Assembly (NCBI GenBank): GCA_016841205.1
Contig: JAENZP010000002.1
Coordinates: forward strand, 124,001 to 188,000
Reading direction: 5' to 3'
Length of the DNA stretch: 64,000 nt
Origin: Desulfoscipio geothermicus
GTDB lineage: Bacteria; Bacillota; Desulfotomaculia; Desulfotomaculales; Desulfallaceae
Part shown: one piece after another, positions 11,202-56,094 of the stretch
Layout: every line of letters begins with the position of its first letter
How positions within the stretch are numbered: the stretch's first letter is position 1
The notes under the pieces: generated by a model
Database searches by the model: none
What the model was told of the DNA's origin: nothing
What the model saw: only the letters and a program-made list of their open reading frames with translations
Translations under genes and position numbers: made by a program

Positions 11202-14200
11202 ATGATTTTAAATACTGAACAACTTCGTCAAAAAGCTCATGAACTTTCCTTAACACACGACCCTTACGTGAGAAGAAGACCATCAAAGCACCTGTGGCGG
11301 GAGTTTTATGCGGACGTTGAGAATTTACGCTCGTTTATACGCTCCCTACAGGACGTCAGCGCAAGCTGTTCGCAGCCCGCGGAGGAATGGCTGTTAGATC
11401 ATGCCGAGTTCATCGAAGAACAGGTATTGGTAGTCCGGCACGAGCTTTCCAAAGACTTCTCACGGGCTTTGCCGCACCTGCGCAAAACCGGTGAGGCAAG
11501 GGTAATGTCTATCTGTGCTGATTATCTCGAACATGTGGATGGGAACCTGAACGAGGAATCGTTCGTTTCATACATCAATTCTTACCAGGAAGTATCCGTT
11601 CTTACCATTTCCGAAGCGTGGGTAATTCCGCTTATCTTGCGCATTGCCTTGATCCGGCGCCTAACCGAAGTCATGGAACTGGTCCGCGAACGACGAGAGG
11701 TGTGTGCGTTAGTCGAACGTCTGCTGGCGCGCATAGAACCGTCTAAATTAAATCCGGATGCTCTTCAGGCTGTTCTTGAAGAAGCGGGCCAGGATATGCC
11801 GCTCTCAGGCCCGCTGATCGTCCATTTGGTCAGGCACTTGCGTGAGTGGACAGACGATTCGACAGCCGTACGGGATTGGTTGATATGCAAACTGGAAAAC
11901 GGCCCGGAAAGCCTTGACCAAATCGTCTCCTACGAATACCAGCTTCAGGCCTCCTATCAAGTGACCACAGGCAACCTCATCGGTAGTTTGCGCAAAATTT
12001 CGCGCCTGCACTGGCGCGATTCGTTCGAACGGATTTGTCTTGTTGAGCACACTCTGTGCGAAGAAAGCGCGGGTGTATATCCAAAACTTGATTTTTCAAG
12101 CCGCGACGTGCTGCGCAAGCGCATTGAGCAATTGGCCCGCCGTTTGCGAGTGCCGGAAAATCTGGTTGCGCAGCACGCCGTCCGGATTGCGGCACAGGAA
12201 TACGAACAGGCATGTGCGGAACGGGTACGAGCGGATGAGGAACTGCCGCGCCGGGCATTTGCCGCTTACTACCTGCTGGAACCGGACGGCATCAAGGAAC
12301 TGCATCGTGCTCTAAAAATATGCAGCACCCCCCGGTATTTGCCGGAAACAGGAATTTTACGTCGTGCCACCGGCGCGTATTTCACCATCCTCACGGGATT
12401 GTTCGCGGTCTCACTTTTCGGATTTGCCATATGGGTTGCCGGCGGCGCGAGCTTCACCACTGCCCAGTGGGCGATGATTGTACTTGCGCTGTTCTTGCCC
12501 GCCAGTGAGTGGGCCGTTACGGCGGCACACTGGCTTATAGAGTGTGCCAGGCGACCGCGGCTGCTGTTGAGATACGATTTCTCCCACGGGATTCCACCTG
12601 AAGCAACCACTATGATCGTTATTCCCGCAATCTGGTCCACGGTTAAAGAGGTGCAGGAATTGGCGGACCGGCTGGAACTGCATTACCTGGCCAACCGCGA
12701 TACGAATATCCACTTCGCTCTCCTGGGTGATCTTGTTAACGCAAATACGGAGAGACTGCCGGAGGATACCGATATCCTTGCAGCCGCGCGCGCAAGCATT
12801 GAAAAATTAAACTGCACGTACTCCCGCCCGGGCGGGAGTACCTTTCACCTCTTTCAACGCCGCAGGTTGTGGAACCCGTCCGAGGGGGTATGGATGGGTT
12901 GGGAGCGCAAGCGGGGCGCATTGGTGGAATTTGTCGATCTGCTTAAAGGACGGGCTGACACGACTTTTAACTGTGCAATCGGGGACACGTCTATCCTGTC
13001 GCGCATCCGTTATGTCATTACCCTAGATGCGGATACCAGGCTGCCCCTGGGAAGCGCGCAGCGGATGATCGGTACCCTGCATCTACCCTACAACCGGCCA
13101 CGGTTAAACCGTACCCAGACACGGGTTATCGAAGGATATGGCATACTGCAGCCGCGTATAGGCATTAGCCACGCGGCGGCCTTACGCTCGCGATTTACTT
13201 ATTTATGGTCGGCAGAGCCGGGCATCGATCCGTATGCTTTTGCCGCCTCTGATCCATACCAGGACGGGTTGGGACAGGGCATTTTTACAGGAAAGGGTAT
13301 CTTTGATGTTGATGCATTTGCCCAGGTGCTGTGTGAACGGATTCCGGAAAACCGGGTGCTTAGTCACGACTTGTTGGAAGGCGGGTTTTTACGCGCCGGC
13401 CTGCTGTCGGACATCGAATTAATCGATGAGCACCCATCTACGTTCAACACTTACCAGAAAAGAATGCATCGCTGGGTGCGCGGCGATTGGCAACTGCTCC
13501 CCTGGCTGTTTCATCGTGTCCGCGACCGGCGAGGAATACTTTTACCGGTGGATTTATCACCCCTCACCCGCTGGCAGATGATCGACAACCTGCGGCACAG
13601 TTTGCTGCCGCCTTCTCTGTTTGCAGTATTGCTGCTTGGCCTGACCGTCTTACCAGGCTCTCCCGGACGTTGGCTTGCTTTGGTGTTCGCTACAGTGTTC
13701 TTGCCGTTGCTCCGCCAATTGGTGGCCATCAGACGGACGGTTTGGCGTCCCCGGAGCTTGCTGGCCACAGCCGGGCAAGTTTTGGTAACCATTATGACCC
13801 TGCCGTTTCAAAGCGTGGTGTTACTGGACGCAATTGCCAGAACATTATACCGCTTATTGGTGTCCAAACGTCATCTGCTGGAATGGGTCAGCGCAGCAGA
13901 AGTTGAACGCCGCAATCGGGGCGGGCGCTACCCTGCACTGCTGGGTATGTACGGGGGCTACGCGCTGGTGTTCCTCTTTGCGCCGGCAGCGGCGGCCGGT
14001 ACTGTTGCGGCGCTGCAGTGGACAGGCCTGGCGCTTTCCGCTGTATGGGCTGTCGCTCCCCTGGCAGTCCGCTGGCTGGACCAGCCCGTGCAGCGGCCTG
14101 AGCGCCCTCTTACAGCAGCAGAGGAGGAAGAACTACGAAAGTTGTCGGAACAGATATGGGCGTTTTTCGAGGACTACGTTACTGAAACAGATCACTGGCT

Positions 14201-17200
14201 GCCGCCTGATAACGTGCAAATCGAACAGCCCAACAGGATCGCCCACCGCACTTCGCCTACTAACATAGGGCTTTATCTCGCCTGCACGCTGGCAGCGCGA
14301 GATTTCGGGTTCATCGATACGCCCGGCTTGATTAAGCGTTTGGAACCCACCATTAGTACGGTTGAGCGCCTAGACAAATGGAAAGGCCATCTTTACAACT
14401 GGTACGACACGATTACCCTTGAACCACTACCTCCGCTGTACGTGTCAACGGTTGATTCCGGTAACTTCGTCGGTTGTTTGCTGACAGTCAAAGAGGGGCT
14501 GGTGGAGTGGCTCAAGTCGTATAGCGAAGGGGACGGACAGCCGGGTTCAGAGCGGGATAGCGGTAAGGTGACAGAAGCATCACATGTTGCCTTCGCCGAG
14601 GAGCTAACGCCTGCACTGAAAGATGGAAACGCAGGCAAAGGCAGAACATTACATGAGAGCGCCCGGGAGGAGTGGCCGACCCGCGGGCAGAAACTGATCG
14701 CCCGTCTGGAAGTGCTGATTAACGGGACAGACTTTCGCCCGCTTTACGATAACAAAGCCAAATTGTTCCACTTGGGCTACCAAACCGGGCTGCGTGAACC
14801 TGATCAAATCCTGTATGACCTGCTGGCGTCAGAGGCAAGGCAGTTAAGTTTTATTGCCATCGCCCTGGGTCATGTGCCTGTATCGCACTGGAATACGCTG
14901 GGGCGGGTAATGACCAGGGTAGGGCGGCGTGTCACACTGCTCTCGTGGTCCGGGACGATGTTTGAATATTTAATGCCCTGGCTCTTTATGCGCACCTATC
15001 GGAACACCATATGGGAGAGCACCTACCGTGCAGTGGTCGAGCGGCAAATTCAGTACGCCCATCAACGGGGAGTCCCGTTCGGCATCTCCGAATCCGGCTA
15101 TTATGCCTTTGATTTTCAAATGAACTATCAATACCGGGCCTTTGGTGTTCCCGGTCTCGGATTCAAGCGCGGCCTCGAACAAGATCTGGTTGTAGCTCCG
15201 TACGCGACAATCCTAGCCTTACCCTTTGCCAGGCGCCAAGGGCTGGCAGATTTGGGTAAATTGGAGGAACTGGGAGCGCGGGGAAAATACGGTTTTTATG
15301 AAGCCATCGACTTCACCTCCCAGCGGTTGCCGAAGGAAAAGACCTGCATGGTCATCCGGAGTTTTATGGCCCATCACCAGGGAATGAGCCTGCTCACCCT
15401 GGCGAACTTGCTGGCACCGAAAAAAATATACGAACATTTTCACAGTGACAAACGCGTGCGGGCGGCGGAACTACTGCTGCAGGAACGCATTCCCGCGCGG
15501 CCTAAAATCATTAAACATCCCGCTATGAGCCGGGTGCATGTGCCTGATACCAGGCCGGCAGTGACCGGTGCCCTGCGCGAATACCTCAACGTGGATACGC
15601 CTGCACCCGAGGTGTGCGTCCTTTCCAACGGGACCTTTATGACCGTAGTGACCAACAGCGGCAGCGGGTTCAGCCGGTATGAAGGGCTGGCCGTCTCGCG
15701 CTGGCGAGAGGATCCGGTGTTGGACCATTGGGGAAACTACATGTATATTCGTGATGTTACCAGCGACGCAGTATGGTCGCCGGCATTTCAGCCGTGTCGT
15801 GTCCCGTCTGATGAACAACGGGTGCAATTCTCTCTTGACCGGGCTACTTTCATGCGTGTAGATGGAAACGTGCATACGAGCCTGGAAATATGCGTGTCTC
15901 CGGAATGGAATGCGGAAGTCCGCCGGCTGACGCTCACCAACGCAGGGAATGAAGCGCGGATCATCGAAGTCACAACGTTTCTTGAACTGGCCCTGGCGCC
16001 TCCCATGGCCGATGATGCGCACCCGGTCTTCAACAAATTGTTCATCAAAACGGCATATGTGGAGGATGCCCGGTGCCTGCTGGCCCAGCGCAGGCCCCGC
16101 CAAAAAGACGAGCCACCGTTATGGGCGGCGCATTCGCTGATGGTCACAGGCCGGACGCTGGGACCGGTGGAATACGAGACCGACCGGGCCGTCTTTATTG
16201 GCAGGGGCCATACGCTCGCCGAGCCACAGGGGATCCGTTCTCGCCTGCGTGGCACGGTGGGCTCTGTGGCCGACCCCGCCTTTATCATGCGTAGACGATT
16301 AAGCATCGAGCCCGGTGAACAGGTGCAGCTTAACGCTGTCACCACTGTGGCAGGCACGAAGGAAGAAGCGATGGACATTGTAAGCCGTTTCTCAGGGGAC
16401 CTGGTGGTGGAACGAACATTTCAACTGGCCTGGAATCGCAGTCAAATCGAACTGCGGCATTTGCACCTGACTGCCGCCCAGGCCATGACTTTCCAAACTT
16501 TTACGGGCCGGGTATTATATACTCCGCTGCTGCGGCAGGAACGCAAGCAAAGTATCACTGCCAATACAAAGGGGCAGTCCGGTCTCTGGGCATACGGAAT
16601 TTCCGGAGACTTGCCGGTGATCCTGGTACGGGTCGAGAACCGGGCCAATTTGCAGTTTGTCGTCGAGCTGCTGACCGGATACGAATACTTACGCCGCCTG
16701 GGGCTTTATTTCGACCTGGTCATTTTGAACGAATCGGCGGGCGGATACCAGCAGGATTTGCAGGAAACCCTTAGGCGGGCGATGGAACAAGTCATTAACC
16801 GGTGTAGTACAGGAACCGGCGGCGTTTTTATTATCAATGCCAGCCAGCTGCCGGACGAGGACAGAACACTACTGCTGGCCGCAGCCCGTGTTGTGCTGCG
16901 GGCAAGCGGCCCCAGCCTTAAGGCGCAAATTAAACTACCCCGGCGGGATACCGTCTTCCCGGCACCCCTTACGCCAACAGCTCCTTTAAACAGATTCGCC
17001 GCTCATCCACCGGAAGACCCGGGCGAATTAATGTTCTTCAACGATTGGGGAGGATTTTCACCTGATGGCCGGGAGTATCGAATTATGCTTAAAAACGGCA
17101 ATTACCTGCCGGCGCCATGGGTCAATGTAATCGCCAACTCGCGCTTCGGCTGCCTGATCTCCGAACTCGGTACGGGCTACACCTGGTGGCGCAACAGCCG

Positions 17201-19517
17201 GGAGTTTAAACTGACCCCGTGGTCCAACGATCCTGTGCTTGACCCGCCGGGTGAAGTGTGTTACCTGCGTGACGAAGAAAGTGGTGAACTATGGTCTGCC
17301 ACACCGTCTACCGCACAAATAAACCAGCCTTACACCGTTACCCACAGCCGGGGGTTCACCTGTTTTCGTCATGAGAGACACGGTATCGGGCAGGAGATGA
17401 TTGTTTTTGTGCCACCGGATGATCCGGTCAAGGTGGTTAAATTGCGGCTGCAGAACAGTAGTGGCGTGCGGAGGCGCCTTTCCGTCACCTATTACGCGGA
17501 ATGGGTGCTGGGTGTACATCGCCAGGCGAACGCCTCTTTCATCGTCACGGAGTGGGATGAATCGGCTCGAGTTATGCTGGCCCGTAACACGTATCAGGAT
17601 ATATTCAGCAATGCCACAGCCTTTTTGGGCGTGTATCCGCAACCGCAAGCGCTTGTCGATTCACCAACTGCGTCGGTACGCGAGGCGTGGAAAGCCGCCG
17701 GCGCGGACGAGCTGTCCTGGACGGCTGACCGCAACGAATTTATCGGCCGCAATGGTACACTGGAAAAACCCGCCGCCATGGGCCGGGAGTGTCTGTCAGG
17801 CCAAATAGGAGCTCTTTATAACTCTTGCGGCGCGGTACAGACCAAGCTCACCCTGGAGCCTGGAGCCGAACGGACAGTCTACATTCTACTCGGCTGCGAA
17901 CATTCCAGAAATGCCGCTGTGAGTATTGCGCAACAATACTGCCAAACCAGGGTCTGCGACCAGGCCTTTGAACAGGTGCAAGAATTCTGGGCCGGCGTTT
18001 TAGACCAGATCTCGGTTGCCACGCCCTGCCCGGAAATGGATATCCTGCTGAACGGCTGGTTGGTTTATCAGGCCCTGGGCTGCAGAATGTGGGCGCGCTC
18101 CGCTTTTTACCAGGCGGGAGGCGCTTACGGCTTTCGCGATCAACTACAGGATTCTCTGGCGCTCCTGCACTCCCGTTTTGACCTTACGCGGGCGCAAATT
18201 TTGCTGCACGCCGCGCATCAATATGAGGAGGGCGACGTACAGCACTGGTGGCATGAGGAGACGCAGCGCGGCATCCGCACGCGTTTTTCCGACGATTTGC
18301 TATGGCTGCCCTATGCCGTCGGACGGTATGTCGAGCATACAGGAGATGAAAGTATCCTTGATGAGACGGCGCCGTATCTGCATAGTGAACCTTTGGCGGA
18401 GGGTGAACATGAACGATACGAGCCGACCAAAATCTCTACCCAAAGCAGCACCGTTTTCGAGCACTGCCTGCGCGCCATCGACAGGGCCCTGCAGCGCTTT
18501 GGTGAACACGGGCTACCGCTGATCGGCATTGGCGACTGGAATGACGGCATGAGCCGTGTCGGTGCCCAAGGCCGCGGTGAGAGCGTGTGGCTCGGCTGGT
18601 TCCTCTGTATAGTGCTGGATCGGTTCACGGAACTTTGCCGGCAGCACGGCAATATTAATCGGGCGGAACGCTACCGGGGTGTACACGATAAGCTGGTCTC
18701 CTCCCTTGAAGAGCACGCCTGGGATGGGCAGTGGTATAGGCGAGCTTTCACCGACGCCGGACAATGGCTGGGGTCTATTTACAATGATGAATGCAGGATT
18801 GATGCCATCGCCCAGTCGTGGTCGGTCATCTCCGGAGCGGCGCCGCAAGAGAAGGCGCTGCAGGCTATGCAGTCATTCGACCGCGAACTTGTGGACCGGG
18901 TTCTATCCGTGGCGTGCCTTTTGACGCCACCTTTTGACCGCACGGAACCGAGTCCCGGCTATATTCAGGGATATCCGCCCGGAATTCGGGAGAACGGGGC
19001 CCAGTATACCCATGGTGTTATATGGAGCATTATCGCCTGGTGCCGGCTTGGTAACGGAGATAAGGCTTTGGAATTGTTTCAAATGCTCAATCCTCTGAAC
19101 CACACCCGTACGCCTAATGAAGTGCGGCAATATGCTGGTGAACCCTACGTCATGGCGGCGGACGTTTATACCACGGATCCACACCAGGGACGCGCCGGCT
19201 GGACGTGGTACACCGGCGCTGCGGGATGGATGTATCAGGCCGGAGTTGAGTGGATCCTTGGCCTGCGCCGCCGTGGCCAACGGCTGTACATTCGCCCGTG
19301 CATCCCTTGCGCATGGCCGGAGTTTTCCGTCAGTTACCGTTTTGGCGGCGCACGCTACCTTATTACGGTCAAAAATCCGTCACGCAAGCCCGGTGGAGTA
19401 ACCGCTTTTCAAATTGATGGGCGAGAAATTGCGCTTATGGAGCAAGGTATAAAGGAGAGCCCTTACGTTGAATTGTACGACGACGGGCAGGTCCATCATG
19501 TCGTTCTGATGTTTTAA
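11202..19517 (+). CDS. Cyclic beta-1,2-glucan synthase-like protein (GT84-type, GH94-type phosphorylase region)
   Basis: 2771 aa; RYVITLDADTRLPLGSAQRMIG, HRWVRGDWQLLPW, C-terminal GIGDWNDGMSRVG and YPPGIRENGAQYTHGVIW as in NdvB/ChvB-type and cellobiose-phosphorylase-like enzymes. Confidence 0.9.
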   Translation: MILNTEQLRQKAHELSLTHDPYVRRRPSKHLWREFYADVENLRSFIRSLQDVSASCSQPAEEWLLDHAEFIEEQVLVVRHELSKDFSRALPHLRKTGEARVMSICADYLEHVDGNLNEESFVSYINSYQEVSVLTISEAWVIPLILRIALIRRLTEVMELVRERREVCALVERLLARIEPSKLNPDALQAVLEEAGQDMPLSGPLIVHLVRHLREWTDDSTAVRDWLICKLENGPESLDQIVSYEYQLQASYQVTTGNLIGSLRKISRLHWRDSFERICLVEHTLCEESAGVYPKLDFSSRDVLRKRIEQLARRLRVPENLVAQHAVRIAAQEYEQACAERVRADEELPRRAFAAYYLLEPDGIKELHRALKICSTPRYLPETGILRRATGAYFTILTGLFAVSLFGFAIWVAGGASFTTAQWAMIVLALFLPASEWAVTAAHWLIECARRPRLLLRYDFSHGIPPEATTMIVIPAIWSTVKEVQELADRLELHYLANRDTNIHFALLGDLVNANTERLPEDTDILAAARASIEKLNCTYSRPGGSTFHLFQRRRLWNPSEGVWMGWERKRGALVEFVDLLKGRADTTFNCAIGDTSILSRIRYVITLDADTRLPLGSAQRMIGTLHLPYNRPRLNRTQTRVIEGYGILQPRIGISHAAALRSRFTYLWSAEPGIDPYAFAASDPYQDGLGQGIFTGKGIFDVDAFAQVLCERIPENRVLSHDLLEGGFLRAGLLSDIELIDEHPSTFNTYQKRMHRWVRGDWQLLPWLFHRVRDRRGILLPVDLSPLTRWQMIDNLRHSLLPPSLFAVLLLGLTVLPGSPGRWLALVFATVFLPLLRQLVAIRRTVWRPRSLLATAGQVLVTIMTLPFQSVVLLDAIARTLYRLLVSKRHLLEWVSAAEVERRNRGGRYPALLGMYGGYALVFLFAPAAAAGTVAALQWTGLALSAVWAVAPLAVRWLDQPVQRPERPLTAAEEEELRKLSEQIWAFFEDYVTETDHWLPPDNVQIEQPNRIAHRTSPTNIGLYLACTLAARDFGFIDTPGLIKRLEPTISTVERLDKWKGHLYNWYDTITLEPLPPLYVSTVDSGNFVGCLLTVKEGLVEWLKSYSEGDGQPGSERDSGKVTEASHVAFAEELTPALKDGNAGKGRTLHESAREEWPTRGQKLIARLEVLINGTDFRPLYDNKAKLFHLGYQTGLREPDQILYDLLASEARQLSFIAIALGHVPVSHWNTLGRVMTRVGRRVTLLSWSGTMFEYLMPWLFMRTYRNTIWESTYRAVVERQIQYAHQRGVPFGISESGYYAFDFQMNYQYRAFGVPGLGFKRGLEQDLVVAPYATILALPFARRQGLADLGKLEELGARGKYGFYEAIDFTSQRLPKEKTCMVIRSFMAHHQGMSLLTLANLLAPKKIYEHFHSDKRVRAAELLLQERIPARPKIIKHPAMSRVHVPDTRPAVTGALREYLNVDTPAPEVCVLSNGTFMTVVTNSGSGFSRYEGLAVSRWREDPVLDHWGNYMYIRDVTSDAVWSPAFQPCRVPSDEQRVQFSLDRATFMRVDGNVHTSLEICVSPEWNAEVRRLTLTNAGNEARIIEVTTFLELALAPPMADDAHPVFNKLFIKTAYVEDARCLLAQRRPRQKDEPPLWAAHSLMVTGRTLGPVEYETDRAVFIGRGHTLAEPQGIRSRLRGTVGSVADPAFIMRRRLSIEPGEQVQLNAVTTVAGTKEEAMDIVSRFSGDLVVERTFQLAWNRSQIELRHLHLTAAQAMTFQTFTGRVLYTPLLRQERKQSITANTKGQSGLWAYGISGDLPVILVRVENRANLQFVVELLTGYEYLRRLGLYFDLVILNESAGGYQQDLQETLRRAMEQVINRCSTGTGGVFIINASQLPDEDRTLLLAAARVVLRASGPSLKAQIKLPRRDTVFPAPLTPTAPLNRFAAHPPEDPGELMFFNDWGGFSPDGREYRIMLKNGNYLPAPWVNVIANSRFGCLISELGTGYTWWRNSREFKLTPWSNDPVLDPPGEVCYLRDEESGELWSATPSTAQINQPYTVTHSRGFTCFRHERHGIGQEMIVFVPPDDPVKVVKLRLQNSSGVRRRLSVTYYAEWVLGVHRQANASFIVTEWDESARVMLARNTYQDIFSNATAFLGVYPQPQALVDSPTASVREAWKAAGADELSWTADRNEFIGRNGTLEKPAAMGRECLSGQIGALYNSCGAVQTKLTLEPGAERTVYILLGCEHSRNAAVSIAQQYCQTRVCDQAFEQVQEFWAGVLDQISVATPCPEMDILLNGWLVYQALGCRMWARSAFYQAGGAYGFRDQLQDSLALLHSRFDLTRAQILLHAAHQYEEGDVQHWWHEETQRGIRTRFSDDLLWLPYAVGRYVEHTGDESILDETAPYLHSEPLAEGEHERYEPTKISTQSSTVFEHCLRAIDRALQRFGEHGLPLIGIGDWNDGMSRVGAQGRGESVWLGWFLCIVLDRFTELCRQHGNINRAERYRGVHDKLVSSLEEHAWDGQWYRRAFTDAGQWLGSIYNDECRIDAIAQSWSVISGAAPQEKALQAMQSFDRELVDRVLSVACLLTPPFDRTEPSPGYIQGYPPGIRENGAQYTHGVIWSIIAWCRLGNGDKALELFQMLNPLNHTRTPNEVRQYAGEPYVMAADVYTTDPHQGRAGWTWYTGAAGWMYQAGVEWILGLRRRGQRLYIRPCIPCAWPEFSVSYRFGGARYLITVKNPSRKPGGVTAFQIDGREIALMEQGIKESPYVELYDDGQVHHVVLMF

Positions 19518-44697: not shown

Positions 44698-47600
44698 CTA
44701 TATGAACTCAAGCTTTATCATCATCCTTATAATCATAACAACAGCTTCAGCTCTGGTGATTTTTCCACTGGGTCTGAGTGTTCCATCCACATATCCTTCG
44801 ATTATTGAATGTTTAACCATTAATGCTATTGATGGCCTTGCCCATAAGCCAATGTCATTATAATCCCCAAACCGGGAAAGATATTGCTGAATATCTGCAC
44901 TGTCAATACTCATATCAACACCTGCAAATTCCAATGCATTTTTTATAATTACTGCCGTTTCCTGCCTGCTTACGTATGCATTAGGCTTGAAAGACCCATC
45001 ATTGTAGCCTCTGATAATGCCGACATTAATAGCAGCACCTATATTTCCTGCATACCAGTCATCAGTTGATACATCATTGAACAAAGCTTTTTCAGGCATC
45101 TCTGCAAGACCAAGGGCTCTTACTGTAACAGAAACTAACTCGGCTCTTGTAATATAATCATCGGGGGCAAAGGTATTGCGGGGAGTGCCGTTTACAATCA
45201 ACTTGGATGCCAATATATTAATGTTTTCCTCAGCCCAATGGTCTGCTGTATCAATAAAAGTCTTCCTGTTTTCAATAACAGTATAGGTACTGTTTGTATT
45301 TCTCATTATCACTGCAGAAGTTTGTCCGTTTGATTGTTTAAACCTGGTGGGAACAGGAGTAAATGATCCGTTTCCGGTCACCTCAACTCCAACGGCAAAA
45401 TTTGGATTTACAGGCCCCGGCAACTTTATAGTCCTTTCCACATAGCTTCCGAAACGTGTTACTTCGTAGGTTTTGTCTCCTGCCATAATTTCGATCTTGA
45501 ATTTTACAGGTGTTCCTACTATTTTAAGTCCGGCTGAATTTGCATATTTAAGCGCCTCTTTTATTTCCTCCTCGTCAGCTTGGGCTATAGTAACATTCAG
45601 TTTGGCATCCTTTGCTTCTATGCCTGTTTTCTCCATAATAGCTTCAATATTCAATTCAGATGCCGGTAGTGTATAGGACGCATATGGACTTTGTATTCCC
45701 AATGAAATTCCCCTGTCAGCCATCTTATTCATAAGCTTTCCACTCATTTCAACATTGAGTTTTTCCGATTGCATTACCTGTACTGCAATAATGCTGCCCG
45801 CTTCACTATTATTAACAGCATCCAGTGCCCGGTCTTCATCAATTACCACATTCGTAATCAGCCCTTTATCTTTATCAAGAACAGTACTTACGGAGGCTGG
45901 TATGGACACGATTTTTCCATTGGAAGACTCGACGGTAACAGAATTTGTATCCTGTGTATCTTCGTCTTTGTCTTCATCTTCGTAACTGGAACCAGAAGTG
46001 TTTGATGCAGTGGTTACTGTAGTATTTGGCCCGTCGGGAGTCCAGTTACCTGCCCCATCCCCTGCTCTTACCATAAAAGTATACTGCGTACCTGGAGAAA
46101 GCCCCACAATATTTGTGGTCAATACATCTCCCAGTGTCACATACAGCTTGCCATTCATATATATCCTGTAACCTGTTATATTTACATCATCTTCTGCCGG
46201 TGCCCATGTCAGGGCAAGACTGCTACTTGTAATATTAGCTGCTGTAAGCACATCGTCCTGGGACCATGTCGGAGCTTCGAAGTCATCGGTAGGCGGCGGC
46301 AATTCACCAGGCAGTACAGTAGCAAAAACACCTGCACGAGTGGCAGCATAAAATGTACCGGAACTTGGCGCACCGGCTGGTGCAATATCTATAGTTTCAA
46401 AAGACAGTACTGTTGTTCCCTCTTTCAAACCTGCTTTTATCCTGTGCCAGTGGACATCTTCAGGTTCCGTTGAAAGAAAACCACTTGTCGTAATTACAGT
46501 TCCGGCAGTTGCCGGACTGAAGACCGGGGTACCCGATATACCAAAATCACTTCCGGTCTCCGTCCATGTAACTCCTCCGTCCCTACTGTCAAAAACGTAC
46601 GTATCGGACGGAGTAATACCATATATTTTAACGTTTCCGACTACTATCACATGCTCATCATCATGAGGGTCCACAACCACACAGCCCGGTATGAAGGTAT
46701 AATCCGGCAAGTTCGCAGCAATATTTGTTTGGATACTGCTCCAATCCAGTCCCCCATTGCTGCTTTTGAAAAGCTCAATAGCCTCATCCCCCCGGCGGAT
46801 TGCATACACCACAGGCGAGTTGGAGGCTGCAGCTATATAATTAATCAGATCATTCCCATCGGAAATAGCAGCCTTTCTCCAATTGGCTCCTCCGTCATCA
46901 CTTCGATACAGTCCATCCGTATTGATACCGCCCATCCTGACACTTGCGTAAAGTGTCCTTGCTTCTCCGACTCTCTCCCCGAAAACAAGCGTATCATCCC
47001 ATATCGAAAAATAAGGCTGGTTCGGTGTAGCTCCCACATTAGTTGTTGGAAGCCCGTTATTTGCAGGATTCCAGGTTATTCCTCCATCAACGGTTTTATA
47101 AACCCCTCCATATCCGTACTCACCTTCAATAAAACGCATCACACCCACATATACCGTCAATGGATCATCCTGATCCACCGCAAGGCTTTTGATTGTACTT
47201 TGGGGCAGTGCATTCTCACCGCTTCCCGATGCAGCAACCCATGTAACTCCGCCATTACCGCTCCAGAGCACGCCTGTTTCAGTAGCGGCATACAACCGGC
47301 TCCCGTCTGAAGCCCATTTAAGTTTCTTTATTCTCAGGTTATCCAAGGTATGATCGGATACCTTGTGCCATTCATAACGGGTAAAAGCAACCTCACTTGT
47401 CAAAGCTTGCGTACCATCTGTATTAGCAACCTTGATTGTCACATCTGAGAGTAAATCGTTTTCTTCAGGAGGCAGGTATTTTGCCTTGTAATCATCAGCC
47501 TGTACGATCGTGCCAATATCCTCGTTACCACCGGGGATATCATTTACATACCACTGTATGTCGGTTTCAATGAGACCTGTCTGCTCAGCAAAATACATAA

Positions 47601-50600
47601 TCTCATACCTGTCACCCATATTGACTATCCTTTTCGGATCAGGATAAAGCTTAAGAGCAGGAGCAACTGCATTGTCGGCTCCTCCTAAAAGTGTGCCTGT
47701 TACATAACCATCGGCGCCGGCTTTTGGTGATATTTTAACAGCCAGGTCATACCGGCTGTCCCCGTTCAGTTCGGTAACCTTAACCTCATGAATATATCTG
47801 CCGCTCTGCCATATGTCTCCTGAGTAATTGAAACCACCGTTTCCGTCACCATTCCACAGCTCAATACTGTAATTGTTCCCTTCCGGCTGCGCTGCAACGG
47901 TAGTAATAAGTAAATCAAGACAGCCGTCATCATCAGCATGTATAAACGTCTTTGGATCACCTGTAATCCCCAGGGCTTCTGGTTCCCCGAACGTACCGTC
48001 GTCAAGCCCTTTAAGCAGATACAATTCCGGACCGGCATATCTGGAAACAATCATATCGCCGACTCCGTCCGATGTTACATCTCCAAACAGGAGCATTCCA
48101 GTTGAATAATATGTATCACCCCACGGCTTAAACAGTGGCTGTCCTTCGAATCCTCCATACCCATCATTTAAAAATACTTTTATGCCTGATCCGGTAACAG
48201 CCGGCCAGCCTGATTCCCTGTTAAAAACAACCAGGTCAATATATCCGTCACTGTTCTGGTCACCTGCATACAAGCAGGCTGATCTTCCTTCCTTTGAATA
48301 ACTTCCCCCTCCGGTAAATCTGCCTGCGCCATCGTTCAGCCTGACTACTATGGGTGAATCCAGGCCTGTCTGGATTATATCCATATCTTCGTCATTATCC
48401 ACATCTTCAAATAGAAGGACAGGTGAAGGAACACCTCCTGTGGCCGGAGTGGCAATTCCATCCCTGTTGCTCCACAGGCGAGTGAACCTGCCGGTTCCGT
48501 CTCCCTCATAAACACGAATTTCGTCAAATCCGTCGTCATTATCATTATCCCTCATGACTACCATATCGGGATATTCATCCCCGGTTAGTTCTTCAATCCA
48601 TGATTTTTCCGGATATGACACATCCGAAGAAAGCATGTATTTTTCCAGCTGCATTGACAGTTCAAATGTCCCGTCTCCCTGGCCTGTATAATATGACAGT
48701 CCGTCCACACTTCTGTGATCACCACTGATCCACAGATCAGTAATACCATCGCCTCCAATATCCTCAAGCTTATATGTACCATGACTCGTATTTACCCCAC
48801 TGGGTACAGGAAGGCTCATTCCCTCAACAAAAACACTGTCAGATGCTTCCGGGCAAACCTCGACAAGGGCCATAACCCTCTCATGATCGCTAAGTGATTC
48901 GGCATATATGCAGACCTTGCCGGAAGGCGGCACCCGGTCGGGTGCTGTATATAACCCATTGGCGTCTATACTGCCAACATCCACTCCCGGAACCTGCCGA
49001 ACAGACCACTCCACTGCTTTTGAAGCTGTAAACTGCAGCGTATCCCCGGAGTGTACAACGTTCTCAGACTGTGAGATTGTTAATGAAGATGCAGCTCCAT
49101 CCAAAGGCTCACTCGCAAAAACACCTACACAAGTGGCAGCATAAAATGTACCGGAACTTGGCGCACCGGCTGGTGCAATATCTATAGTTTCAAAAGACAG
49201 TACTGTTGTTCCCTCTTTCAAACCTGCTTTTATCCTGTGCCAGTGGACATCTTCAGGTTCCGTTGAAAGAAAACCACTTGTCGTAATTACAGTTCCGGCA
49301 GTTGCCGGACTGAAGACCGGGGTACCCGATATACCAAAATCACTTCCGGTCTCCGTCCATGTAACTCCTCCGTCCCTACTGTCAAAAACGTACGTATCGG
49401 ACGGAGTAATACCATATATTTTAACGTTTCCGACTACTATCACATGCTCATCATCATGAGGGTCCACAACCACACAGCCCGGTATGAAGGTATAATCCGG
49501 CAAGTTCGCAGCAATATTTGTTTGGATACTGCTCCAATCCAGTCCCCCATTGCTGCTTTTGAAAAGCTCAATAGCCTCATCCCCCCGGCGGATTGCATAC
49601 ACCACAGGCGAGTTGGAGGCTGCAGCTATATAATTAATCAGATCATTCCCATCGGAAATAGCAGCCTTTCTCCAATTGGCTCCTCCGTCATCACTTCGAT
49701 ACAGTCCATCCGTATTGATACCGCCCATCCTGACACTTGCGTAAAGTGTCCTTGCTTCTCCGACTCTCTCCCCGAAAACAAGCGTATCATCCCATATCGA
49801 AAAATAAGGCTGGTTCGGTGTAGCTCCCACATTAGTTGTTGGAAGCCCGTTATTTGCAGGATTCCAGGTTATTCCTCCATCAACGGTTTTATAAACCCCT
49901 CCATATCCGTACTCACCTTCAATAAAACGCATCACACCCACATATACCGTCAATGGATCATCCTGATCCACCGCAAGGCTTTTGATTGTACTTTGGGGCA
50001 GTGCATTCTCACCGCTTCCCGATGCAGCAACCCATGTAACTCCGCCATTACCGCTCCAGAGCACGCCTGTTTCAGTAGCGGCATACAACCGGCTCCCGTC
50101 TGAAGCCCATTTAAGTTTCTTTATTCTCAGGTTATCCAAGGTATGATCGGATACCTTGTGCCATTCATAACGGGTAAAAGCAACCTCACTTGTCAAAGCT
50201 TGCGTACCATCTGTATTAGCAACCTTGATTGTCACATCTGAGAGTAAATCGTTTTCTTCAGGAGGCAGGTATTTTGCCTTGTAATCATCAGCCTGTACGA
50301 TCGTGCCAATATCCTCGTTACCACCGGGGATATCATTTACATACCACTGTATGTCGGTTTCAATGAGACCTGTCTGCTCAGCAAAATACATAATCTCATA
50401 CCTGTCACCCATATTGACTATCCTTTTCGGATCAGGATAAAGCTTAAGAGCAGGAGCAACTGCATTGTCGGCTCCTCCTAAAAGTGTGCCTGTTACATAA
50501 CCATCGGCGCCGGCTTTTGGTGATATTTTAACAGCCAGGTCATACCGGCTGTCCCCGTTCAGTTCGGTAACCTTAACCTCATGAATATATCTGCCGCTCT

Positions 50601-53600
50601 GCCATATGTCTCCTGAGTAATTGAAACCACCGTTTCCGTCACCATTCCACAGCTCAATACTGTAATTGTTCCCTTCCGGCTGCGCTGCAACGGTAGTAAT
50701 AAGTAAATCAAGACAGCCGTCATCATCAGCATGTATAAACGTCTTTGGATCACCTGTAATCCCCAGGGCTTCTGGTTCCCCGAACGTACCGTCGTCAAGC
50801 CCTTTAAGCAGATACAATTCCGGACCGGCATATCTGGAAACAATCATATCGCCGACTCCGTCCGATGTTACATCTCCAAACAGGAGCATTCCAGTTGAAT
50901 AATATGTATCACCCCACGGCTTAAACAGTGGCTGTCCTTCGAATCCTCCATACCCATCATTTAAAAATACTTTTATGCCTGATCCGGTAACAGCCGGCCA
51001 GCCTGATTCCCTGTTAAAAACAACCAGGTCAATATATCCGTCACTGTTCTGGTCACCTGCATACAAGCAGGCTGATCTTCCTTCCTTTGAATAACTTCCC
51101 CCTCCGGTAAATCTGCCTGCGCCATCGTTCAGCCTGACTACTATGGGTGAATCCAGGCCTGTCTGGATTATATCCATATCTTCGTCATTATCCACATCTT
51201 CAAATAGAAGGACAGGTGAAGGAACACCTCCTGTGGCCGGAGTGGCAATTCCATCCCTGTTGCTCCACAGGCGAGTGAACCTGCCGGTTCCGTCTCCCTC
51301 ATAAACACGAATTTCGTCAAATCCGTCGTCATTATCATTATCCCTCATGACTACCATATCGGGATATTCATCCCCGGTTAGTTCTTCAATCCATGATTTT
51401 TCCGGATATGACACATCCGAAGAAAGCATGTATTTTTCCAGCTGCATTGACAGTTCAAATGTCCCGTCTCCCTGGCCTGTATAATATGACAGTCCGTCCA
51501 CACTTCTGTGATCACCACTGATCCACAGATCAGTAATACCATCGCCTCCAATATCCTCAAGCTTATATGTACCATGACTCGTATTTACCCCACTGGGTAC
51601 AGGAAGGCTCATTCCCTCAACAAAAACACTGTCAGATGCTTCCGGGCAAACCTCGACAAGGGCCATAACCCTCTCATGATCGCTAAGTGATTCGGCATAT
51701 ATGCAGACCTTGCCGGAAGGCGGCACCCGGTCGGGTGCTGTATATAACCCATTGGCGTCTATACTGCCAACATCCACTCCCGGAACCTGCCGAACAGACC
51801 ACTCCACTGCTTCCGAAGCTGTAAACTGCAGCGTATCCCCGGAGTGTATAACGTTCTCAGACTGTGAGATTGTTAATGGCAAAACAGTTGGATCGTAAAT
51901 ATGCAATGATGTTACAGCAGTAGAACTTCTGTTTGTTGCATCGGTTACCATAAGATTTACCTGGTAAAAGGGTACATTAGTACCGGGATCGGCAGATTGC
52001 AGAGTAATTCCGGCAGCACCGTATATTGATTGAAGCTGCTCCCAGGTTAAGCTGACTGTTGCTCCCGAAGCATCATTATACATCCCGTTATTGTTTATAT
52101 CCCATTTATAGCTTACTATGCTGTCGCCCTCCGCAGCATTAGGGTCGTAAGAAGCTGATCCGTCCAGCAGCAGTGAATCTCCCCAGTTTATTGCATAAGG
52201 TCCTCCTGCATCTGCGACAGGTGCAGACTGGCTGATCCCGGGTGTCGTAAAAATAACAGCAGGCCCGTCATCACTCTCGTTATCAAATTCATCAACCGCT
52301 TGTATCTGACAGCTGTATTCGGTACTTGAGCTCAATTCCGTCAATTCATATGTATTTGTTTCTCCGTCAACTGCGGTTATAAAAACTCCATTGACATATA
52401 TCCTGTATTTTTTTATCAGGCTTTCATCCATCGCGTCAGACCATGTAATAACCGCACCGGATGATGTGACAGGAAACGCATATACAATGCTGTCATCATT
52501 CCACTGGGGAGGTGAATTATCCTCTTCTCCTGATATGTTAAAATTACTGTATAAAAATATGTCGAATGCTCCATTGGTATCATTATCAATCAGGTCGCCT
52601 GCAACTGAATTAAATACAATATATCTGCCGTCATCGCTTATACAGGAACCACTGCTGTCTCCGTTTCCCGCAGCGCCGTCTTTATTTAAGCTAAGGCAAG
52701 TAGTTTCTCCTGTAAGGATATCGTGGAGGAAAACATCATCGCTGCTGTTGCTATCATTTTCACAGAAGTTATCTGCATTCGAAACAAAAGTAATATACCT
52801 TCCGTCATCGCTGATGTCGGGCAGGGTACAATTGCCGCTGCACTCTTCTCCATTGCTTGTCAAGCTAACTCTTTCAGTTATGCCGTTTTCGACATCATGT
52901 GCAAATATATCTGACTTTTCGTTATTATCATTTTCCACAAGATTGACTGCTAAAGATCTGAAAACAACATATTCCCCATCTGCAGTTATTCTGCCATAGC
53001 TGCTATCCCCTCCAACCGCTTGATCTCCATCTGAATCTACGCTTATCCTTGTTGTCTGTTCCGTTTGCCTGTCGTACAAAAAAATATCATCCAGATTGTT
53101 TGTATCACCGTCAACAATCGAACCGTCCCTGGAATTGTATACAACATATCTTCCGTCGCCGCTTACATCGGGAAGAAAGCATGCCTGGCCTGAATTTTTA
53201 CTCACAAGTTCAAGAGTTCCTGTTCCCATGTCTTTAATGTATATATCCGATATATTGTCGGTATCTTCCGATACAAAATTGGTAGAAGTAGAGCAAAATA
53301 CAACATATCTTCCGTCTGTACTTATTACTCCATTATTACTGCTCCCGTTACCCTGTATTCCGTCTGAAGTCATACTTGCCAGTTTGGTTTCACCTGTCTG
53401 TGCATCATATACAAATATATCATAATTACCGTTAACATCCCCGGATACAAGATTAAAGGCAGAAGATCCAAACGCTATATATCTTCCGTCCCCACTTATG
53501 CTTGGGGAGTCTGATATTCCAAAACTTGCCTCGGTACCGTCTGAAGATACACTTACCCTCATTATTTCCTTCTCATCTCTGTCATATAGAAAAACATCCC

Positions 53601-56094
53601 CCATACCATTGGTATCATTTTCAACAAGATTACCTGACGAAGACGAAAAGGCAACATATCTCCCATCAGAGCTGACTGCAGCCCCATAACTGTCCAGATC
53701 TCCTTCCTCACCCAGCTCCGGTATTTGGGGAACACTTATTCTTTCCAGCTTTGCGGCTCCGTCAGGTGTTGATTCATTCAATGTGCTTACTATAATGCCG
53801 GGACCATTATCTGTCCGGTTACCGGCAGCATCCACGGCCTCAATCTTGAAGCTGTATTCCGTCTCTGCCAGAAGCCCCGTAACCTCGTATACTGAATCAG
53901 TTACCGTATATTCACAATTGCTGTCTACGTGTATTTCATAACCTATCACTCCAACATTATCCGCTGCTTCGGTCCAGCTTAGCGTAATTGCGTTTACTCC
54001 GATTTCATCTGCGTTTACAACGCTCTCTGCAGGCCACTGTGGGGGTGTTGTATCCTGTTCTCCGTTGATCAGTATTGAAATGCTTCCATCCCCATTGTTC
54101 ACAACAGCAAGGTCATCCTTGCCATCATTGTTGAAATCCCCTGACACAAGATTAACCGGGGATTCTCCCACAGAAAAATCCTGCCTGAAGTGGAACATAC
54201 CATATGATCCCTTAAGTATGGAAACCTTATTGCTGTACCTGTTTGCAACTGCGATATCGGGCTTATCGTCACAATTGTAATCTCCGCCGGCGATACCACA
54301 TGCCCCGTAAAGAACCTCATAAGAAAATTCGCTGAAGGAGGATATGTCGTTTTCCCTGTTAAGCCCATATACAATATTCAATTCGTCAAATGATGAGCTG
54401 AAATTGGTTACTGCTAAATCAGACTTGCCATCATCGTTAAAGTCATCAGAAACAATACCAAGGGGATAACTTCCTGCAGGGTGAGTCTCTGCCACATTAA
54501 AGGTTCCGTCTGCCAAGCCCATAAGAATTGAAACTCCTTTAAAACCATAATCCTTGCTGACTACGGCAATATCACTGTTATTGTCTCCATTGAAATCTCC
54601 CAGTGCCATTCTTCCCGGCGAGCTTTCCACGGCATAATCACCGGAAAAGGTAAAGCTGCCGTCACCATTTCCCAAAAGGATGCTTACATTATTAGAACTG
54701 CGATTTGAGACTGCAAGATCTGCATTTCCATCCTTATTAAAATCTCCGCTCAAAACAGTATTCGGAGAAGTCCCCGTATTGTAGCTGTTACCTTTTGTAA
54801 AGCTGCCGTCACCATTATTAATCATTATCACACATGCATTGCTTATTGTAACCGCAAGGTCAGGGTAGCTATCCGGATTGAACATACCGGAAGTTACCCA
54901 TATGCTACTATAGCCTACATCATAATACAGGCAGTCCTGAAAGGTTCCGTTTCCTTTTCCAAGTATTACCCCTATGGCGTTCTGTACGGATCTGGTTGAT
55001 ACAATATCAAGGTTGCCATCCCTGTCAAAATCATCAACTACCGCAGCATAAGGCTGACCTCCTATATAACAGCTGTCCATGGAAGTAAAGGATGCCTGGT
55101 CCAGTGGGGCCATGGTTCCGTATGCTCCAAAGGCAATATCTATATTACCCGATGCATCCGGCTCATCAATTCCTATCTGTGCAAAAGGTATTTTAAATTC
55201 ATATACCTTGTGCTGGTAATTAACCCTTCCTGTATATATAAATCCCGGAGTACCCCATTGTGTTTCCTCCATTGAAGACTTGAATTCCCTTACACCCTCT
55301 GGAGTGTTTATGTAAACCTTGGCATAATCCTCGTCCCCATCCATTGTATTATCAGGGGTAGCATCAAATAATACATACAGGTTCTTGTTATCGTTAAGCA
55401 CCCATATGTAAATGTAACCCTCTGGATGACCTGAGCCGGTAGCCGCATATTCCTTGACAAAAGGCTTCATCAAATCAGCTTCGTCAATATTTCCGTCTAT
55501 TGAGACTGCTCCTACTGATGTATTTAATTCATAATGATAAAACTCGGAATGGGAGTTTATATCCTTGTACATGTTGGAAAGAGGGAATTGAAAAGGCTCC
55601 TTGCTTATTTCCACCGGCTCTATACGTGCCGATATTTTCATTATCCCATTGCCGGGTAACCGGTCAAGCAATAACTCAAGACCACCCCCAGGTATTGAAA
55701 TCAAATCATTATCCTTAACGGAAAGCTTTTCTGTTTCTGTTTTATCTCCAAAATCATTTAAAGGTGTAATTCCGCCAATTGAAACATAATCCAGGTAAGC
55801 GGCACCTCCACCGGATTTATTTATATAAATCCGTATATTATCCTTATAATCTATGCAATCCTTAAGATTAACGGATAAATCACCGATACATCTGCCAAAA
55901 CCCAGTAACCCGATTTCCTCCGGTCCTTTACCTACATCGGCATAAACTTTTAAATATCCGTTTGTTTCCCCCTCTGCCCTTAAGACAACTATATTATTTG
56001 ATGCGTAAACATTTTTACTATCCGGAAACAATACGAATTGAAACATAACGATAATAATCAGCAAAACTGCCATACCTTTTTTACATGTAGACAA
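44698..56094 (-). CDS. Giant SLH-anchored surface protein (DOMON/CBM9-like, FG-GAP/VCBS, Fn3, PD40-like propeller, duplicated Ig/FG-GAP/Asp-box module, 3 SLH)
   Basis: 3798 aa; signal peptide; many D-x-D-x-D-G-x-x-D FG-GAP repeats; DGRYVAFSS...DVFLYDR PD40-like repeats; GGVTW Asp-boxes; three C-terminal SLH domains. Confidence 0.92.
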   Translation of the reverse strand: MSTCKKGMAVLLIIIVMFQFVLFPDSKNVYASNNIVVLRAEGETNGYLKVYADVGKGPEEIGLLGFGRCIGDLSVNLKDCIDYKDNIRIYINKSGGGAAYLDYVSIGGITPLNDFGDKTETEKLSVKDNDLISIPGGGLELLLDRLPGNGIMKISARIEPVEISKEPFQFPLSNMYKDINSHSEFYHYELNTSVGAVSIDGNIDEADLMKPFVKEYAATGSGHPEGYIYIWVLNDNKNLYVLFDATPDNTMDGDEDYAKVYINTPEGVREFKSSMEETQWGTPGFIYTGRVNYQHKVYEFKIPFAQIGIDEPDASGNIDIAFGAYGTMAPLDQASFTSMDSCYIGGQPYAAVVDDFDRDGNLDIVSTRSVQNAIGVILGKGNGTFQDCLYYDVGYSSIWVTSGMFNPDSYPDLAVTISNACVIMINNGDGSFTKGNSYNTGTSPNTVLSGDFNKDGNADLAVSNRSSNNVSILLGNGDGSFTFSGDYAVESSPGRMALGDFNGDNNSDIAVVSKDYGFKGVSILMGLADGTFNVAETHPAGSYPLGIVSDDFNDDGKSDLAVTNFSSSFDELNIVYGLNRENDISSFSEFSYEVLYGACGIAGGDYNCDDKPDIAVANRYSNKVSILKGSYGMFHFRQDFSVGESPVNLVSGDFNNDGKDDLAVVNNGDGSISILINGEQDTTPPQWPAESVVNADEIGVNAITLSWTEAADNVGVIGYEIHVDSNCEYTVTDSVYEVTGLLAETEYSFKIEAVDAAGNRTDNGPGIIVSTLNESTPDGAAKLERISVPQIPELGEEGDLDSYGAAVSSDGRYVAFSSSSGNLVENDTNGMGDVFLYDRDEKEIMRVSVSSDGTEASFGISDSPSISGDGRYIAFGSSAFNLVSGDVNGNYDIFVYDAQTGETKLASMTSDGIQGNGSSNNGVISTDGRYVVFCSTSTNFVSEDTDNISDIYIKDMGTGTLELVSKNSGQACFLPDVSGDGRYVVYNSRDGSIVDGDTNNLDDIFLYDRQTEQTTRISVDSDGDQAVGGDSSYGRITADGEYVVFRSLAVNLVENDNNEKSDIFAHDVENGITERVSLTSNGEECSGNCTLPDISDDGRYITFVSNADNFCENDSNSSDDVFLHDILTGETTCLSLNKDGAAGNGDSSGSCISDDGRYIVFNSVAGDLIDNDTNGAFDIFLYSNFNISGEEDNSPPQWNDDSIVYAFPVTSSGAVITWSDAMDESLIKKYRIYVNGVFITAVDGETNTYELTELSSSTEYSCQIQAVDEFDNESDDGPAVIFTTPGISQSAPVADAGGPYAINWGDSLLLDGSASYDPNAAEGDSIVSYKWDINNNGMYNDASGATVSLTWEQLQSIYGAAGITLQSADPGTNVPFYQVNLMVTDATNRSSTAVTSLHIYDPTVLPLTISQSENVIHSGDTLQFTASEAVEWSVRQVPGVDVGSIDANGLYTAPDRVPPSGKVCIYAESLSDHERVMALVEVCPEASDSVFVEGMSLPVPSGVNTSHGTYKLEDIGGDGITDLWISGDHRSVDGLSYYTGQGDGTFELSMQLEKYMLSSDVSYPEKSWIEELTGDEYPDMVVMRDNDNDDGFDEIRVYEGDGTGRFTRLWSNRDGIATPATGGVPSPVLLFEDVDNDEDMDIIQTGLDSPIVVRLNDGAGRFTGGGSYSKEGRSACLYAGDQNSDGYIDLVVFNRESGWPAVTGSGIKVFLNDGYGGFEGQPLFKPWGDTYYSTGMLLFGDVTSDGVGDMIVSRYAGPELYLLKGLDDGTFGEPEALGITGDPKTFIHADDDGCLDLLITTVAAQPEGNNYSIELWNGDGNGGFNYSGDIWQSGRYIHEVKVTELNGDSRYDLAVKISPKAGADGYVTGTLLGGADNAVAPALKLYPDPKRIVNMGDRYEIMYFAEQTGLIETDIQWYVNDIPGGNEDIGTIVQADDYKAKYLPPEENDLLSDVTIKVANTDGTQALTSEVAFTRYEWHKVSDHTLDNLRIKKLKWASDGSRLYAATETGVLWSGNGGVTWVAASGSGENALPQSTIKSLAVDQDDPLTVYVGVMRFIEGEYGYGGVYKTVDGGITWNPANNGLPTTNVGATPNQPYFSIWDDTLVFGERVGEARTLYASVRMGGINTDGLYRSDDGGANWRKAAISDGNDLINYIAAASNSPVVYAIRRGDEAIELFKSSNGGLDWSSIQTNIAANLPDYTFIPGCVVVDPHDDEHVIVVGNVKIYGITPSDTYVFDSRDGGVTWTETGSDFGISGTPVFSPATAGTVITTSGFLSTEPEDVHWHRIKAGLKEGTTVLSFETIDIAPAGAPSSGTFYAATCVGVFASEPLDGAASSLTISQSENVVHSGDTLQFTASKAVEWSVRQVPGVDVGSIDANGLYTAPDRVPPSGKVCIYAESLSDHERVMALVEVCPEASDSVFVEGMSLPVPSGVNTSHGTYKLEDIGGDGITDLWISGDHRSVDGLSYYTGQGDGTFELSMQLEKYMLSSDVSYPEKSWIEELTGDEYPDMVVMRDNDNDDGFDEIRVYEGDGTGRFTRLWSNRDGIATPATGGVPSPVLLFEDVDNDEDMDIIQTGLDSPIVVRLNDGAGRFTGGGSYSKEGRSACLYAGDQNSDGYIDLVVFNRESGWPAVTGSGIKVFLNDGYGGFEGQPLFKPWGDTYYSTGMLLFGDVTSDGVGDMIVSRYAGPELYLLKGLDDGTFGEPEALGITGDPKTFIHADDDGCLDLLITTVAAQPEGNNYSIELWNGDGNGGFNYSGDIWQSGRYIHEVKVTELNGDSRYDLAVKISPKAGADGYVTGTLLGGADNAVAPALKLYPDPKRIVNMGDRYEIMYFAEQTGLIETDIQWYVNDIPGGNEDIGTIVQADDYKAKYLPPEENDLLSDVTIKVANTDGTQALTSEVAFTRYEWHKVSDHTLDNLRIKKLKWASDGSRLYAATETGVLWSGNGGVTWVAASGSGENALPQSTIKSLAVDQDDPLTVYVGVMRFIEGEYGYGGVYKTVDGGITWNPANNGLPTTNVGATPNQPYFSIWDDTLVFGERVGEARTLYASVRMGGINTDGLYRSDDGGANWRKAAISDGNDLINYIAAASNSPVVYAIRRGDEAIELFKSSNGGLDWSSIQTNIAANLPDYTFIPGCVVVDPHDDEHVIVVGNVKIYGITPSDTYVFDSRDGGVTWTETGSDFGISGTPVFSPATAGTVITTSGFLSTEPEDVHWHRIKAGLKEGTTVLSFETIDIAPAGAPSSGTFYAATRAGVFATVLPGELPPPTDDFEAPTWSQDDVLTAANITSSSLALTWAPAEDDVNITGYRIYMNGKLYVTLGDVLTTNIVGLSPGTQYTFMVRAGDGAGNWTPDGPNTTVTTASNTSGSSYEDEDKDEDTQDTNSVTVESSNGKIVSIPASVSTVLDKDKGLITNVVIDEDRALDAVNNSEAGSIIAVQVMQSEKLNVEMSGKLMNKMADRGISLGIQSPYASYTLPASELNIEAIMEKTGIEAKDAKLNVTIAQADEEEIKEALKYANSAGLKIVGTPVKFKIEIMAGDKTYEVTRFGSYVERTIKLPGPVNPNFAVGVEVTGNGSFTPVPTRFKQSNGQTSAVIMRNTNSTYTVIENRKTFIDTADHWAEENINILASKLIVNGTPRNTFAPDDYITRAELVSVTVRALGLAEMPEKALFNDVSTDDWYAGNIGAAINVGIIRGYNDGSFKPNAYVSRQETAVIIKNALEFAGVDMSIDSADIQQYLSRFGDYNDIGLWARPSIALMVKHSIIEGYVDGTLRPSGKITRAEAVVMIIRMMIKLEFI
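46322..49084. repeat. Internal tandem duplication, copy A (period 2793 bp)
   Basis: Same sequence as 49115-51877; antisense ORFs at 46651/49444, 47766/50559 and 48585/51378 translate identically. Confidence 0.95.
49115..51877. repeat. Internal tandem duplication, copy B (period 2793 bp)
   Basis: As above; the differences noticed sit near the edges (e.g. GCACGAG/ACACAAG, TGTACAACG/TGTATAACG). Confidence 0.95.

Follow-up and report, generated by a model that had tools for sequence, protein, structure and literature searches.

Tandem duplication of a 931-codon module in a giant SLH-anchored surface protein of Desulfoscipio geothermicus, with copy identity probably shaped by k=55 assembly

The draft genome of Desulfoscipio geothermicus encodes a giant S-layer homology (SLH) surface protein in which a module of 931 codons occurs twice, in frame and in tandem. 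The tandem duplication is very likely real, and we consider it probable that the near-perfect identity of the copy interiors is mainly a product of de Bruijn graph assembly with k=55. Most likely the software that built the genome from short reads is the source of this identity, which then says little about recent gene conversion.

The gene lies in contig C36 of a 36-contig draft genome of 3.38 Mb. The window analysed here is the 64,000-nucleotide stretch at positions 124001-188000 of that contig, is free of N and provides the coordinates used below unless a contig or locus is named. ORF calls and translation give the 11.4-kb reading frame of the preliminary description; it lies on the minus strand and encodes 3,798 amino acids, with a TTG start and a good ribosome-binding site, AGGGAGGA, about 6 nt upstream of it. 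From the N-terminus to the C-terminus of the protein, the features are as follows.

44698-56094, minus strand: the giant ORF, a predicted SLH-anchored multi-propeller surface protein (Pfam and translation)
56002-56094, minus strand: predicted signal peptide, residues 1-31 (KK, hydrophobic stretch, YAS), by eye from the translation
54070-54744, minus strand: N-terminal FG-GAP repeat propeller, among the protein's 13 FG-GAP_3 stretches (PF13517/PF01839)
53791-54027, minus strand: fibronectin type III domain 1, approximate (PF00041; limits by eye from the sequence)
52555-53682, minus strand: PD40/TolB-like WD40-type propeller, approximate (PF07676; NCBIfam TolB below cut-off)
52270-52512, minus strand: fibronectin type III domain 2, approximate (PF00041; limits by eye from the sequence)
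52039-52227, minus strand: PKD-like domain (PF18911, 20.2 bits, below the Pfam cut-off of 27)
49115-51878, minus strand: module copy 1, N-terminal in the protein, with Ig-like domain, FG-GAP propeller, Ig-like domain and BNR/sortilin-type propeller (self-comparison, Pfam)
49086-49114, minus strand: linker between the copies, 29 bp (base-level self-comparison)
46322-49085, minus strand: module copy 2, architecture as copy 1 (self-comparison, Pfam)
46339-49019, minus strand: core of copy 2, 2,681 bp identical to 49132-51812 of copy 1, likely a merged consensus
46042-46248, minus strand: fibronectin type III domain 3 (Pfam best stretch, residues 3283-3351)
44701-45258, minus strand: three S-layer homology domains, predicted wall anchor (PF00395, three stretches, E 2.5e-32)

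The three C-terminal SLH repeats bear out the earlier assignment to the SLH surface proteins, and residues 1-31 form a typical signal sequence as judged by eye. The 13 FG-GAP_3 stretches score 183 bits against a curated cut-off of 26.9, and two BNR/sortilin-type families, PF15902 (47.9 bits vs. 33) and PF13088 (42.7 bits vs. 31.4), are each found in two stretches, one per module copy, while fibronectin type III (PF00041) is found in three. No enzyme family was found above the NCBIfam cut-offs; the F510_1955 family glycosylhydrolase was considered and rejected, NF045728 scoring 85.8 bits where 175 are required. A phmmer search against the PDB returned no match, and a structure prediction of a single module made without an alignment reached a pLDDT of 32. 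Judged from its sequence, the protein is predicted to be exported and SLH-anchored, with propellers linked by Ig-like and fibronectin domains, and its domains suggest that it most likely serves as a wall-anchored multi-propeller binding or scaffold protein.

Base-by-base self-comparison of the window at an offset of 2,793 agrees with the preliminary description in finding two near-identical in-frame tandem copies that repeat every 2,793 bp, a multiple of three (931 codons). Each copy measures 2,764 bp, and the high ends, 49085 and 51878, lie one base beyond those given before. Five positions differ between the copies (46334, 46338, 49020, 49021 and 49056), all of them within 17-66 bp of the copy ends, and random placement would leave the identical core free of all five with a probability of about 2e-8. 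Their spacings are 12 and 3 bp near one end, with 29 and 34 bp near the other; all are below 55. Four of the five change residues (I/V, E/K, C/R and V/A), the fifth being synonymous; their clustering at the edges and the residues concerned (I/V, E/K, CV/RA) had been read correctly before. Beyond the copies the mismatch rate rises to about 65-80%, and the copy edges are therefore abrupt. The module, whose Ig-like domains were read from the sequence, begins at an Ig-like domain (LTISQSENV...) and stops at the last propeller strand (YAAT..GVFA), and the duplication thus respects domain borders. The G+C content of the duplicated module (46322-51878) is about 45-49%, compared to 37-43% at the two ends of the gene, which may perhaps point to a separate origin.

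The genome assembly has no module copies beyond these two, and a contig scan with the module gave only a weak FG-GAP relative (27%). Searches of the six other genomes of the genus and of 99 relatives in all did not find the module, apart from one weak partial match; among the 113 genomes of the class sample and the 399 of the phylum sample no whole module turned up, and the matches were limited to parts of the propellers. The genus yielded no ortholog of the N-terminal part over its full length, and the best match there to the neighbouring AraC-type gene is partial and 44% identical. Each of the 41 genomes searched has relatives of the C-terminal SLH part, and 50 SLH matches occur in the D. 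geothermicus genome itself.

In order to see how the genome had been assembled, both tips of the 34 unmasked contigs were compared. The other two contigs, C26 (2,945 bp) and C30 (2,628 bp), consist of N throughout and perhaps represent rRNA; a 16S search gave no match, which in view of these contigs carries no information on repeat resolution. About half of the contig tips share sequence with another tip, over exactly 55 bp or slightly less and never more, and one tip motif searched across the whole assembly was found at contig ends only. Overlaps of exactly 55 bp that are never exceeded indicate a de Bruijn graph with k=55. This is the last k in default SPAdes and metaSPAdes runs. The assembler and the type of reads are deduced from the contig tips rather than taken from documentation. 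(Meta)SPAdes merges the bubbles that arise from isolated differences between repeats (PMC8021871), and errors of this kind are known to arise from tandem repeats (PMC6868369).

Merging at k=55 predicts that no isolated difference, defined as one with at least 55 identical bases on each side, is left anywhere in the assembly. We examined this in about 708 kb of the 3.38-Mb genome, in which 27 repeat pairs, not fully independent of one another, were found. Twenty-four of the pairs carry differences, none of them isolated, where random placement would leave 10.3 (Poisson p ~3e-5); without the module pair the count is 0 against 7.6 expected (Poisson p ~5e-4). Every retained difference in the 27 pairs has another difference, or unique flanking sequence, at a distance of less than 55 bp, and in the extents measured for this count each pair has one identical run of at least 55 bp. 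A more diverged pair (L079/L108, 89% identity overall) shows three such runs over a longer extent. Differences confined to the edges are also found in unrelated genes, those for an RCC1-type protein and a diguanylate cyclase, and the interior identity of the module copies follows the same pattern as all sampled repeat pairs of the assembly. A finished sister genome (G005; 4,855,529 bp in one contig) served as control: its 18 pairs in 400 kb retain six isolated differences vs. 4.1 expected, and some of them have two or three long runs.

These observations suggest the following model. An in-frame tandem duplication of a whole four-domain module, 931 codons long, produced two copies or more. Where the copies differed at isolated positions, these would then have formed small closed bubbles in the assembly graph, which would be merged into one consensus and written out twice. 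The edge differences would survive because they lie within one k-mer of the unique flank or of another difference and are never enclosed in a bubble. We infer that merging hid real differences within the module pair, and in the present assembly differences spread evenly through the copies would have been erased. The presence of two or more tandem copies is very likely, judging from a junction shorter than one k-mer and from copies that differ at both edges; with a linker of 29 bp, less than one 55-mer, the passage from module to module is supported at the level of a single k-mer, without long-range linking. The assembly contains two copies, and two is also the number that we infer for the genome, but further identical copies would leave the graph unchanged, so that the array could exceed two. 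The earlier suggestion of an assembly artefact thus applies to the identity pattern and to the exact copy number, and probably not to the existence of two tandem copies.

Simulations were used to ask how far apart the copies could truly be. Uniform divergence was imposed on the copies, clusters of differences were merged up to a set span, and the outcome scored was zero interior and at least five edge differences. At 2% divergence this outcome appeared in 0.05% of the runs with a span of 60 bp, 3% with 110, 14% with 165 and 32% with 300, and at 3% divergence in up to 37% (span 300). Under this model the copies may truly diverge by any amount between 0 and about 2-3%; if merging stops strictly at a span of 60 bp, more than 1.5% would be unlikely. 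A divergence of about 1-3% could account for the clean interior together with the five edge differences, and no special exchange process would be needed. Points against merging include the low likelihood of a 2% divergence under the 60-bp limit and the location of two further exact repeats, 1.4-1.5 kb long, in the interior of contigs, which may mean that the assembler used longer-range information or resolved some repeats. The position of these 1.4-1.5-kb repeats also led us to drop the notion that the assembler was unable to pass any repeat longer than 1 kb.

The interiors might instead be truly identical, homogenised by gene conversion or repeated unequal crossover, with exchange tracts that seldom reach the edges and so leave older differences in place there. 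The contrast between five differences in 83 edge bp and none in 2,681 interior bp fits such a process, and long tandem direct repeats, here of 2.7 kb, are an excellent substrate for RecA-dependent exchange. We nevertheless regard it as unlikely, since the identical pattern occurs in every other sampled repeat pair, including unlinked ones and unrelated genes, the retained differences all obey the 55-base rule, and the edge-only pattern is missing from the finished sister genome. At the module locus, gene conversion would be expected to leave an identical pattern and can coexist with merging, but it is unsupported here, the assembler pattern removing its evidence. Of the recent unequal crossover or gene conversion proposed in the preliminary description, the tandem in-frame duplication stands, while the identity pattern no longer serves as evidence, as the assembler gives the same pattern everywhere sampled. 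True homogenisation of the copies in living cells, with the number of 931-codon modules varying within the population from cell to cell, is quite improbable. If it did occur, recombination in a free-living sulfate reducer would alter the length of a surface protein and its number of propellers; the host genome encodes DsrA, with a score above the curated cut-off.

A very recent simple tandem duplication, with edge differences stemming from the duplication event or from selection at the junctions, would be in keeping with the abrupt edges, the in-frame period and the intact second copy. It should, however, have reproduced edges and interior with equal fidelity, the 29-bp linker and the four edge amino-acid changes demand extra events, and at 0.1% divergence the edge pattern arose in none of 4,000 simulated runs; we hold this explanation to be highly unlikely. 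It is extremely improbable that assembly alone created the second copy in a genome with a single module: this is a draft de Bruijn assembly and short reads alone cannot phase exact repeats of such length, but the module end, the unique 29-bp linker and the module start all fall within one 55-mer, and both edges differ between the copies, which is impossible from a single-copy molecule.

In terms of biology, this is one more giant modular SLH protein, in which the duplicated unit is unusually long. Like other large SLH-anchored surface proteins of Gram-positive bacteria, it has a predicted signal peptide, a long modular ectodomain and three C-terminal SLH repeats; its set of modules, in contrast, is found in none of the relatives searched. 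FG-GAP/VCBS (integrin-alpha-like) and BNR/sortilin-Vps10-type beta-propellers are recognized in it by Pfam above the cut-offs, but here they are paired, each preceded by an Ig-like domain, and form one duplicated unit. Duplication of the module would lengthen the protein and may give it more surfaces for binding at the cell wall, in a role in adhesion or as a scaffold. Repeat-number-variable surface proteins are known from tandem repeats of adhesins and of wall proteins (reviewed in PMC3899988 and PMC6868369), and the in-frame tandem repeat described here could likewise expand or shrink by recombination, although its unit is very long (931 codons) and it is known in two copies from one assembly of a single genome. 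As in collapsed repeats of de Bruijn assemblies (PMC6868369, PMC8021871), copies would be reduced to one consensus and contigs meet in joints of one k-mer; unlike them, the module consensus is written twice within one contig, and the result therefore resembles perfect homogenisation and not a gap. More generally, merged graph bubbles in drafts assembled with a fixed k yield an identical repeat interior with differences at the edges only. Before such drafts are taken as evidence for gene conversion or recent duplication, the length of the contig joints and the isolated differences in other repeats of that assembly need to be checked, and this check works without reads.

Several other repeats were noticed in the genome. 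A secreted RCC1-type propeller protein of 921 amino acids with a dockerin-like C-terminus (L097:10748-13513; C13:140748-143513) contains an in-frame tandem duplication of 415 codons, of which 695 bp are identical and the differences lie at the edges; it is one example of the in-frame internal repeats that other secreted proteins of the genome contain, and domain duplication is thus not unusual in the surface proteins of this bacterium. Further direct repeats, whose periods (324, 432, 702 and 990 bp) are without exception divisible by three, are found on C36 at 115.7 kb (L095), C23 at 135.5 kb (L099) and C13 at 419 kb (L089), those of L095 and L089 at or near ORFs for SLH proteins. Identical stretches of 1,407 bp with a citrate synthase-like gene occur on two contigs (L085:5495-6901 on C18 and L104:1513-2919 on C27), and an identical repeat of 1,501 bp with a diguanylate-cyclase (GGDEF) gene at L075:1014-2514 (C7) and at the end of C6 (L121); the latter lies inside two contigs and has four differences, at the edges only. 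Within the window, a plus-strand ORF of 2,771 amino acids (11202-19517) has GH94 and glucoamylase domains and resembles cyclic beta-glucan synthases.
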